From contig NZ_CP047943.1 in NCBI RefSeq assembly GCF_014279595.1, positions 930,001-994,000 of the forward strand: DNA of 64,000 nt, given 5' to 3'. The notes beneath the pieces were generated by a model. The model ran no database searches. It saw only the letters and a list, made by a program, of their open reading frames with translations, and was not told the DNA's origin. The DNA comes from Synechococcus sp. RS9909 (lineage in GTDB: Bacteria; Cyanobacteriota; Cyanobacteriia; PCC-6307; Cyanobiaceae). The number at the start of each line of letters is the position of its first letter. Position 1 is the first letter of the stretch. The translations under genes and the position numbers were made by a program. Below, in pieces: positions 1,824 through 23,888 of this stretch.

Positions 1824-3419
1824 ATGGGTCTGGTGGCCAGTCTGCTGGTCGCCGCCAGCCCAGTGCGGCCGCTGCGGGCGGCCGAACAGCTGCAGGTGCA
1901 GCTCGATGGCATGGTCATCCCGCTGCAGATCGATGATCTGGTGGCGTGGGGGCGCTCCGGCGGTGTCAGCAATTCCGAGCTGGGCATCTGGCTGAATCTG
2001 CTCGAGCCCGACAGCCGTGAAGGGGTGCTGGAGCTGTTGCGCGCCCCACTGATCAACGACCGGAGCATGGCGCGGCAATTGCTCGGCAGCTGGGCCGGAC
2101 GTCGCCTGCTCGATGAGGTGGCTGACATTGTGCGCGTCGATGACGACAGCGCTGGCGACACCCTGCTGAACACGTTGGACAGCCTGCTCAATCGCCAGGA
2201 GCAGGTGTCGAGCCTGGATCTGCTGGAGGCCCTGCCGGCCAGCCACGTACGGCTGGATCTGGATGCCCTGCTGCAGGCCGCTGGGCATTGGCGTCAGCAG
2301 CTGCAACGCCAGCAGCAACTCGTGCGCCGCCTCGCCAGCGCGGCGCGAGATCAGGGGGTGTCGCAGGGGGCGGCGTCGCCATGGCTGGCTGCTTCCAGGG
2401 CGGCGCTCGGAGCCCGCGAGCCCGAGATCCAGCTGCTGCCGGTGAACCACCGCGCCCAACCTCTGCGTCTGCAGCTCTGGCGGCCCCAGCCGGGAGCGCC
2501 CGCCCACAGCACCTGGCTGGTGTGGATGCCGGGGCTGGGGGGCAGCCCGGATCACTTCCGCTGGTTGGGCCGGGCCCTGAGCCGCCGCGGTTGGTCGGTG
2601 CTTGTGCTCGAGCATCCGGGCAGTGATGCCGAAGCGGTGAAGGCCCTGCTCGATGGCCGTCGGCCGCCGCCGGGGGCTGAAGTGGTCCCCGACCGTCTGC
2701 GCGATCTGGAGGCGGTGCTGGCGGCCCGCCGCCGCGGCACGATTGCCCTGCCCGGTGAGCAGCTTGTGCTCGGTGGCCATTCCCTCGGCGCACTGACGGC
2801 GTTGCTCGGGGCGGGAGCCCGGCCCCGGAGCGGCCTGGACCGCCGCTGTGCCACCGCCCTCGATGACATCCCCCTCAGCAACCTCTCCCGCCTGCTGCAG
2901 TGCCAGCTGGCTGAGGTGGCGTTGCCCTCGCCTCCTGCCGAGAGCACGCCACCGGCGGATCTGGTGGGCCTGATCGGCATGAACAGCTTCGGGAGCCTGC
3001 TCTGGCCCAGGAACCGGCCCCTGCAGCTGCCCGTCCCCATGCTCTTCAGTGGCGGCAGCCTCGATCTGATCACCCCGCCCCAGAGTGAACAGTTGGGGCT
3101 GATGCTGGCGCTGGCGTCCCATCCGGCCAGCCGTGCTGTAGTTGTTGATGGTGCCAGCCACTTCTCGCCGGTGCGGGTGGAAGGACAGGCGGGTGAGGGC
3201 CAGGGGGAGGATCTGTTCCGGCTTGGCAAGGAGCTGGTGGGCGTCCAGCCCCTGCAGGTTCAGGCTCTTTTGGAAGACGAAATTGTGGTGTTTCTTGAGC
3301 AGCTCGAAGGCTCCCGCCCAGAGGCGGCGGCACAGACCAGCAGCCTGCATCGCCGGATCGGCGATCTGCAGCTGCACCGCCTCAACCGCGACGCCGCTGC
3401 GCGCCTGCTGGCTGACTAG
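1824..3419 (+). CDS. Secreted alpha/beta hydrolase, cyanobacterial lipase-like
   Basis: The product belongs to the alpha/beta hydrolase fold. The chosen ATG at 1824 gives a hydrophobic signal peptide ending near LRAAEQ, so the enzyme should act in the periplasm or on a membrane face. The N-terminal 200 residues resemble the DUF1400-type domain that precedes cyanobacterial hydrolases of this kind. The catalytic part has the nucleophile elbow GGHSLG, a strand with SGGSLDLITPP holding the likely acid, and GASHFSPV holding the likely histidine. The substrate is unknown; an ester or lipid is the usual guess. An in-frame GTG at 1818 is an alternative start. The gene converges on the ABC permease gene with about 12 bases between stops. 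Confidence 0.8.
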   Translation: MGLVASLLVAASPVRPLRAAEQLQVQLDGMVIPLQIDDLVAWGRSGGVSNSELGIWLNLLEPDSREGVLELLRAPLINDRSMARQLLGSWAGRRLLDEVADIVRVDDDSAGDTLLNTLDSLLNRQEQVSSLDLLEALPASHVRLDLDALLQAAGHWRQQLQRQQQLVRRLASAARDQGVSQGAASPWLAASRAALGAREPEIQLLPVNHRAQPLRLQLWRPQPGAPAHSTWLVWMPGLGGSPDHFRWLGRALSRRGWSVLVLEHPGSDAEAVKALLDGRRPPPGAEVVPDRLRDLEAVLAARRRGTIALPGEQLVLGGHSLGALTALLGAGARPRSGLDRRCATALDDIPLSNLSRLLQCQLAEVALPSPPAESTPPADLVGLIGMNSFGSLLWPRNRPLQLPVPMLFSGGSLDLITPPQSEQLGLMLALASHPASRAVVVDGASHFSPVRVEGQAGEGQGEDLFRLGKELVGVQPLQVQALLEDEIVVFLEQLEGSRPEAAAQTSSLHRRIGDLQLHRLNRDAAARLLAD

Positions 3420-18773: not shown

Positions 18774-21449
<2,676 letters not shown>

Positions 21450-21466: not shown

Positions 21467-22600
21467 ATGGCCGACTTCTGGATCGCCAACACCATCCGCG
21501 ATCTGATTCAGGGCGATGTGAACGAGCACCTGCCCATGGAGCGCATTCCTCTCCAGGGTGATGTGTTGGGGCTGGGTACCACCACCAGCATCGACAACGG
21601 GGAGCTCATCTTCCTGCAGGATGCCGATGGCCTGGCCACCACGATCTGGAAATGCCAGGCCAGCGATGGCGGGATCCGCTCCCTGCGGGCAGGGGATGGC
21701 AGCAGTCACTTCCCCTACGTGTGCTTCAGCGGTGATGCCACCGCGGCGCGAACCCCTGTGGATTTGGCCAGTTTCGGCGAGGTGCGGGGCCGGCCACTGC
21801 AGGAGCTCGTGGCCGAGGCGATTGCCCAGCTGCGCCAGCAGGGGCGCCTTGTGGAGGCACCGATCTATGGCCTGCGCCTGGTGGCTCAGTGGGAGTCGCT
21901 GGTGATCACCGTGGCCTCCAAGCTGTGCATGGGGCAGCAGCGGCGCAACACCGCCGTGGCCAGCAGTGCGGCCAGCGACGGCACCGCATCGCGCAGCATC
22001 TATCAACTGCTTCAGCACTACCGGTTGGCGCCGGAGGATCCCGGGAATCCCAGCGATCCGATCCGGTTTCTGGGCCGCTCTCTGGAGTGGGATTGCTGTG
22101 GCTTCTTCGATTCCGATCCGGCCCAGGGCCGTGTCACCATCCCCGATCCTCACGCCCATCTGCATCTGCATGGCTGTAGCACCGATCTGCGCTACGGCGG
22201 TCACCTGCACCACGAACATCCCGACACGCGGCTGACATCCCTCCAGCGGCTGGTGCTCTATCCCCTGCAGCAACTGCACCGGCTGGTCAGCGATCTGGCC
22301 ATTGAGACCCTGCAATTCCGCGATGGCAGCGCCCACTTCACCGTGGTCAATCGCGGGGCCATGGATGTCAGCGATGTGGGGGTCGCCGTGGTGGTCAACG
22401 ACCGCTACAGCGGTCATCGCTACCTACGGCTCCCTTGGCTGGCGGCCGGTGCCAGCGAAACCTTTGTCGTGCCTTTGCAGCTCCCGGCGGGGCCGCACCG
22501 CCTTGAGGTGATTGCCGATCCCGAGGGTCACATCCTCGAGGACGCGGCTCTCCAGCTCAACAATCGCGCCACCCTCGAGATTCAGTTGCCAGATGTCTGA
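21467..22600 (+). CDS. Acetolactate-decarboxylase-like protein with C-terminal CARDB-like domain
   Basis: The first roughly 255 of 377 residues align by eye with alpha-acetolactate decarboxylase: GDVLGLGTTTSIDNGELIFLQDADG (family: GLGTF..LDGE.I..DG), APIYGLRL (the IR strand), and a histidine-rich strand. In that strand H233-x-H235-x10-H246 has exactly the spacing of the three zinc-binding histidines of the family. Glu46 and Arg137 match the positions of catalytic Glu and Arg. The last 110 residues read like a CARDB-type Ig fold (LQFRDGSAHFTVVNRGAMDVSDVGVAVVVND). There is no signal peptide. A stretch of about 60 residues before the zinc strand is longer than in the enzyme. Its stop overlaps the crtL start by eight bases. 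Activity is unproven. Confidence 0.7.
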   Translation: MADFWIANTIRDLIQGDVNEHLPMERIPLQGDVLGLGTTTSIDNGELIFLQDADGLATTIWKCQASDGGIRSLRAGDGSSHFPYVCFSGDATAARTPVDLASFGEVRGRPLQELVAEAIAQLRQQGRLVEAPIYGLRLVAQWESLVITVASKLCMGQQRRNTAVASSAASDGTASRSIYQLLQHYRLAPEDPGNPSDPIRFLGRSLEWDCCGFFDSDPAQGRVTIPDPHAHLHLHGCSTDLRYGGHLHHEHPDTRLTSLQRLVLYPLQQLHRLVSDLAIETLQFRDGSAHFTVVNRGAMDVSDVGVAVVVNDRYSGHRYLRLPWLAAGASETFVVPLQLPAGPHRLEVIADPEGHILEDAALQLNNRATLEIQLPDV

Positions 22601-23888
22601 CGTGCTGGTTTCTGATGTGCTGGTGGTGGGTGGCGGTCCGGCGGCCCTGAGCATCGCGGCGGCCCTGGCCGCGGAGGGGCTGGTGGTGGCGTTGCTGGCC
22701 CCCCACGATCCACGGGCACCGTGGCCCAACACCTACGGCATCTGGGGCGACGAGGTGGATGCCCTTGGCCTGGCTCACCTGCTGGAGCACCGTTGGAGTC
22801 ACACGGTGAGCTACTTCGGCTCCGGCAGCAGCGATCCTGCTGATCCGGCCAACGCCCCTACCCGCCACGGCCGCGACTACGGCCTGTTCAACCGCGAGGC
22901 GCTGCAGGGCCACTGGCTCACGGCCTGTGAGCGTGGCGGCGTGCAGCTGCTCCAGGGCCAGGCCGAGCGCCTGGAGTTCGAGCCCGCACATGACGGTCGT
23001 GAGGATGGCGGTAGCGTGCTCCACACTGCCGATGGCCGCCAGCTGCGGGCCCGCCTGGTGGTGGATGCCACCGGTCACCAGCCGTTGCTGGTGCGGCGAC
23101 CCGATGAGGGGCCAGTGGCCGGTCAGGCCGCCTACGGGATCGTGGGGCGCTTTTCGGCGCCGCCGGTGGAGCCTGGCCAATTTGTGCTGATGGACTACCG
23201 CTCTGACCATCTCAGCGATGCGGAGCGCGCCGAGCCCCCCACCTTTCTCTATGCGATGGATCTGGGCGAGGGGCGCTTCTTCGTGGAGGAGACCTCCCTG
23301 GCCCTGGCGCCGCCGGTGCCCTACGACACCCTGCAGCAACGCCTGCAGCGGCGCCTGGCCCACCGCGGCGTCGCGGTGCTGGAGGTGGAGCACGAGGAGT
23401 TCTGCCTGTTTCCGATGAACCTGCCGTTGCCGGATCTGCAGCAGCCGGTGCTGGGCTTCGGCGGAGCGGCCTCGATGGTGCACCCCGCCTCGGGCTACAT
23501 GGTGGGCGCGTTGCTGCGACGCGGCCCCGATCTCGCTCAGGCGCTGGCGGCGGCGCTGGCGAATCCAGCCCTGGGGTCAGCGGCTTTGGCGCAGTGCGGC
23601 TGGCAGGCGCTCTGGCCTGCCGAACGGGTGTGGCGTCATCGCCTCTATCAATTTGGTCTGGGGCGGTTGATGGGCTTCCCTGAGGATTTGCTGCGCCGTC
23701 ACTTCGCCACCTTCTTTGCCTTGCCCACGGAGGATTGGTTTGGCTTCCTCACCAACACGCTGCCCTTGCACCGGCTGATGGCTGTGATGCTCAAACTGTT
23801 TGCCCTTGCGCCCTGGGAGCTGCGGCGCGGCCTGGTGCTGGGGGCCGGGAACGCTCAAGCTCCCCGCTTTCGCCAGTCAGCCGGTTGA
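22593..23888 (+). CDS. crtL: Lycopene beta-cyclase
   Basis: CrtL closes the ends of lycopene into beta rings, giving beta-carotene in the thylakoid or plasma membrane. The N-terminus has the FAD/NAD dinucleotide motif VLVVGGGPAALSIA, then WGDEVDALGL, and GGAASMVHPASGYMVGALL near residue 285, all typical of plant/cyanobacterial cyclases. The start at 22593 lies inside the end of the preceding gene (ATGTCTGA). The 3' end overlaps the convergent GH57 gene by 34 bases. Length about 431 residues. Confidence 0.95.
   Translation: MSDVLVSDVLVVGGGPAALSIAAALAAEGLVVALLAPHDPRAPWPNTYGIWGDEVDALGLAHLLEHRWSHTVSYFGSGSSDPADPANAPTRHGRDYGLFNREALQGHWLTACERGGVQLLQGQAERLEFEPAHDGREDGGSVLHTADGRQLRARLVVDATGHQPLLVRRPDEGPVAGQAAYGIVGRFSAPPVEPGQFVLMDYRSDHLSDAERAEPPTFLYAMDLGEGRFFVEETSLALAPPVPYDTLQQRLQRRLAHRGVAVLEVEHEEFCLFPMNLPLPDLQQPVLGFGGAASMVHPASGYMVGALLRRGPDLAQALAAALANPALGSAALAQCGWQALWPAERVWRHRLYQFGLGRLMGFPEDLLRRHFATFFALPTEDWFGFLTNTLPLHRLMAVMLKLFALAPWELRRGLVLGAGNAQAPRFRQSAG

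Follow-up and report, generated by a model that had tools for sequence, protein, structure and literature searches.

Identification of a conserved gene between gyrA and crtL

What is encoded by the open reading frame that separates gyrA from the lycopene cyclase gene crtL in Synechococcus sp. RS9909? The gene, here called X, lies in a window of 64,000 nucleotides (contig NZ_CP047943.1, positions 930,001 to 994,000 of the forward strand), and positions below are those of the window unless a locus is named. A first-pass annotation had described X as a domain resembling alpha-acetolactate decarboxylase (ALDC; BudA/AlsD) fused to a C-terminal CARDB-like domain. The predicted reading frame was recovered as an intact gene for 377 residues on the plus strand, starting with ATG (21467..22600), and the segments H233-x-H235-x10-H246, GLGT...NGE46 and Y134GLR137L were all found at the residues given for them. 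Genome searches and a contig scan yielded about 50 homologues, of which an alignment of 46 (A1) is the basis of all residue-conservation counts. The dN/dS values of 0.07-0.20 across ten measurable homologue pairs indicate purifying selection and thus a maintained protein. A chance occurrence of the motifs was ruled out by the 46 homologues, the purifying selection and the fold described below. X is a real, conserved and unnamed family. Inspection of the N-terminal sequence revealed no evident signal peptide.

Predicted fold and domain organization

An AlphaFold2 model of X built from A1 has a mean pLDDT of 88.9 and a pTM of 0.86, with residues 156-181 as its sole poorly predicted region. Foldseek ranked ALDC first (E 1.3e-8) and CARDB next. 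In VIA-align comparisons, ALDC structures were the best PDB matches (Z 18.5-19.7 over 204-215 residues; for 6j92, Z 19.7 and rmsd 3.0 over 209 residues), followed by the CARDB structure 3idu (Z 14.5, rmsd 1.9 over 102 residues) and PTD012/C11orf54 (1xcr; Z 13.2, rmsd 4.5 over 223 residues). The predicted model thus supports the proposed BudA double barrel rather than an unrelated fold. The ALDC-fold domain extends from residue 1 to about 269 (21467..22273, plus strand), as also indicated by hhalign and by a Pfam AAL_decarboxy match that remains below its cut-off (PF03306, residues 7-51, 20.8 versus 25 bits); the same family matches weakly in all 46 homologues scanned.

The C-terminal CARDB assignment was confirmed by Pfam above the cut-off (PF07705, residues 289-360, E 9.4e-6, 26.2 versus 22.7 bits), and by structure the domain spans residues of about 270-377 (22274..22597, plus strand). 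Since PF07705 matches every one of the 46 homologues (at E up to 1), the fusion is lineage-wide. X differs from the known CARDB structures (3idu, 2kl6) in carrying this fold behind an apparently cytosolic, enzyme-like domain; our literature search found no paper on CARDB proteins in Synechococcus. An insertion of about 60 residues before the zinc strand had also been proposed. The total is right, as 246 residues of X align to 185 of BudA, but there is no single insert: the extra residues sit in at least two places in the hhalign alignment (about 104-131 and 161-206). That alignment stops at X residue 249, with the CARDB domain beyond it, whereas in the VIA alignments the last aligned model residue falls mostly within CARDB (357-361) and pairs with BudA residues of about 220-244. 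Read from these alignment end points alone, the model weakly hints that CARDB packs where the BudA tail starts.

Conservation and replacement of active-site residues

X was aligned by hhalign (E 1.2e-4) to 21 cyanobacterial BudA sequences (A2) and by three MAFFT modes to the ALDC structure 4bt2, from which the BudA numbering was taken. All four alignments concur in pairing E46 with Glu65, H233, H235 and H246 with His194, His196 and His207, K152 with Lys149, R137 with Lys134 and T148 with Arg145. Based on the ALDC literature, we take Glu65, Arg145 and Glu253 to be the catalytic residues of BudA. The three histidines (22163..22204, plus strand) are invariant in 46/46 homologues, as expected of the zinc site that had been proposed, and they are predicted zinc ligands. 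The proposal that Glu46 (codon 21602..21604, plus strand) represents the catalytic glutamate also held, this residue being present in all 45 homologues that cover the site.

The catalytic arginine is a different matter. Arg137 had been nominated for this role; however, it aligns with Lys134 and is Tyr in the cyanobacterial family f36. The position of Arg145, which is Arg in at least 90% of the A2 sequences, is occupied in X by Thr148 (codon 21908..21910, plus strand; 46/46). It follows that the catalytic arginine is absent from X, and K152 or R160 may replace it spatially. In addition, hhalign found no sequence counterpart of the C-terminal tail of BudA that carries Glu253, because the CARDB domain begins there. 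With Arg145 replaced and no counterpart of Glu253 found, catalysis may differ in kind from that of BudA.

Besides T148 and K152, residues C86, C154, R160, H184, H249 and H251 are invariant in A1 and set X apart from BudA. H249 and H251 (22211..22219, plus strand; 46/46) immediately follow the zinc motif and are not invariant in A2. Such X-specific residues could belong to a different catalytic set, in which H184, H249, H251 and T148 would serve a zinc-dependent hydrolase or another lyase or isomerase. The same-fold protein PTD012 indeed hydrolyzes p-nitrophenyl acetate (PMC12435205). We nevertheless consider this reading unlikely, as E46 and the zinc triad are retained and both natural reactions so far assigned to ALDC-fold proteins, those of ALDC and PTD012, are decarboxylations.

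Family placement and candidate reaction

Although X shares with BudA (PF03306, TIGR01252; 4bt2, 6j92) the predicted double barrel, the three zinc-type histidines and the counterparts of Glu65 and Lys149, structural identity is only 14-18%, and X carries the CARDB domain and about 60 extra residues. It also falls below both family cut-offs, scoring 18.3 bits against the 180.65 required by NCBIfam TIGR01252. The family cut-offs and the replacement of Arg145 rule out plain BudA membership, and on the basis of the cut-offs we treat X as the first representative of a family of its own with the ALDC fold.

PTD012 (DUF1907, PF08925) offers a precedent. It has a zinc-containing fold in common with X, but its structural match is weaker than that of ALDC, it lacks CARDB, and hmmscan at E up to 10 gave no PF08925 match in X. 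For a long time PTD012 was classed as an ester hydrolase; it has now been identified as a 3-dehydro-L-gulonate decarboxylase, and its structural relation to ALDC contributed to the argument (PMC12435205). It thus exemplifies a family of this fold that acts on another 3-oxo acid. The fold members with assigned natural substrates, ALDC and PTD012, both decarboxylate 3-oxo acids (PMC12435205).

Because the zinc triad and the glutamate are kept, the most likely reading is that X is a zinc-dependent 3-oxo-acid decarboxylase, to which we give about an even chance. Such an enzyme would be cytosolic and act on a small 2-hydroxy-3-oxo acid or another 3-keto acid. By analogy with the fold, zinc held by H233, H235 and H246 would bind the keto oxygen and the hydroxyl or carboxylate oxygens of the substrate, departure of CO2 would leave a zinc-stabilized enediolate, and E46 with nearby groups would handle the proton. 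The invariant K152 or R160, together with T148, might take over carboxylate binding from Arg145, while CARDB might occupy the place of the Glu253-bearing tail and help to close the site or aid assembly. Candidate substrates are acetolactate, a homologue of acetolactate, or a 3-keto sugar acid; acetolactate is possible but not favored over another 3-keto acid.

More specifically, and with somewhat less than even confidence, X may represent a third ALDC-fold enzyme family with an active-site set of its own (Thr for the catalytic Arg, extra invariant histidines, and CARDB in place of the C-terminal tail). In picocyanobacteria it would catalyze a decarboxylation that has not been described before, perhaps acting after a ThDP-dependent 2-ketoacid decarboxylase or carboligase. 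Natural reactions have been assigned to two families of the ALDC fold, for PTD012 not until 2025; a third such family, if true, would widen the range of zinc decarboxylases.

Genomic neighborhood of X

X follows gyrA (18774..21449, plus strand; Pfam) after a gap of 17 nt, and its stop codon region is overlapped by 8 nt by the start of crtL (22593..23888, plus strand; Pfam and sequence). Owing to this tight spacing, gyrA-X-crtL looks like one transcription unit. Among the larger loci, the order gyrA-X-crtL was observed in about 20 freshwater-type picocyanobacterial ones, in which gyrA is a conserved neighbor; two loci have gyrA-crtL-X (L037 and L103), and a single locus has X next to GH57-leuA (L100). 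X is found away from gyrA and crtL in marine strains, in Halieaceae and in f11 and f36, two cyanobacterial families outside the picocyanobacteria. In marine strains it is located near genes for an S66 LD-carboxypeptidase, a gamma-glutamyltranspeptidase (GGT) or an FBP aldolase, and these neighborhoods indicate no shared pathway. The linkage to gyrA and crtL was therefore rejected as a functional clue; the order is a lineage trait, in agreement with the earlier remark that function does not explain it.

A conserved place beside housekeeping genes would also suit a non-catalytic or regulatory protein that binds zinc or a ligand and uses CARDB as an interaction module. CARDB domains are mostly binding or adhesion modules, and the loss of Arg145 is in line with this idea as well. 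It appears distinctly improbable, however, because conservation across cyanobacterial families and Halieaceae is among the highest at the putative active-site residues.

For the decarboxylase reading, a potential metabolic lead came from family f36. In both of its X-containing genomes, X is preceded by an MFS transporter gene and by the gene of a ThDP 2-ketoacid decarboxylase (KDC) of the indolepyruvate/pyruvate decarboxylase type, and it lies 108 bp behind the KDC gene; in one of the two (G341), X is N-terminally truncated. Among the Synechococcus genomes tested, each at least 90% complete, KDC orthologues (45-47% identity) occur in 6/6 with X and 4/13 without it (Fisher p 0.011). The ilvB tree, whose small size precludes a correction for descent, contains only two phylogenetically independent pairs behind this link, and family f11 (G034) has X without a KDC gene. 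The co-occurrence is suggestive, a lead only, and inseparable from descent.

KDC genes (L096 4575-6302; L116-L125) are patchily distributed in Synechococcus with variable surroundings, and in two strains the gene lies directly behind that of an SDR dehydrogenase. X or BudA is present in 9 of the 10 KDC carriers among the 19 genomes tested (p 0.005, without correction for descent).

True BudA genes and acetoin formation

Other genomes of the same cyanobacterial family encode full-length BudA as a separate gene. The genome of the window contains it only as two relics, one of them joined to an N-terminal relic of the catabolic synthase AlsS. An alternative to a new activity is that X, despite its altered sequence, is a true acetolactate decarboxylase that converts acetolactate from the housekeeping synthase to acetoin and replaces a lost BudA. 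Fold, zinc histidines and the Glu65 counterpart are as in BudA, X is intact in this genome where both budA copies have decayed, and intact X and full-length BudA occur together in no genome of the genus. Against this, the Thr at the Arg145 position is universal among the homologues, the TIGR01252 score is about a tenth of the cut-off, one genome of the family (G350) carries X and full-length BudA, the mutual exclusion is not significant (p 0.13), and none of the same-genus genomes yielded a catabolic AlsS scoring above the cut-off. We regard this alternative as doubtful and, with a key catalytic residue exchanged, prefer a 3-oxo-acid decarboxylase whose substrate probably differs from acetolactate.

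Acetoin fermentation in deep Black Sea Synechococcus has been assigned through budA (PMC6776005, PMC8955281); that assignment concerns BudA as annotated there and not X. X cautions against taking weak BudA hits in picocyanobacterial genomes as a sign of acetoin fermentation.

The first relic, from a catabolic acetoin operon (L098 2383-2920, minus strand; G000:C1:465430-465886), joins the N-terminal ~70 residues of an AlsS-type synthase to the last third of BudA, the two parts lying in different frames. The second (L099 about 2430-2779, plus strand; G000:C1:1695430-1695780) is a BudA gene with internal deletions and a frameshift. Full-length cyanobacterial BudA proteins (L074, L083, L084 and L087) have an N-terminal extension of ~45 residues that resembles a ribbon-helix-helix (CopG) domain; a Pfam RHH_1 match was obtained only in L074, just below the cut-off (20.1 versus 20.5 bits).

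Distribution of X

Homologues of X occur in the picocyanobacteria Synechococcus, Cyanobium and Vulcanococcus, in one record titled Prochlorococcus, in families f11 and f36, and in two Halieaceae MAGs. The gene is common in freshwater and coastal picocyanobacteria, and its occurrence in the cultured model strain Synechococcus WH7803 makes a gene removal test feasible. No copy was found on plasmids.

The two gammaproteobacterial (Halieaceae) copies (L057 5983-7083 and L058 3517-4605) nest among picocyanobacterial sequences in the tree with modest support, which suggests horizontal transfer from cyanobacteria to Halieaceae; a search of 244 genomes drawn from the Haliea order detected no further X. 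Both copies have a PepSY-like gene upstream, and their downstream genes differ.

Broken copies of X, with stops, frameshifts, truncation or fragments, were observed in five genomes: G161 (L011), G221 (L017/L022), G341 (L020/L097), G396 (L015) and G402 (L021/L023/L024). X has thus been lost repeatedly.
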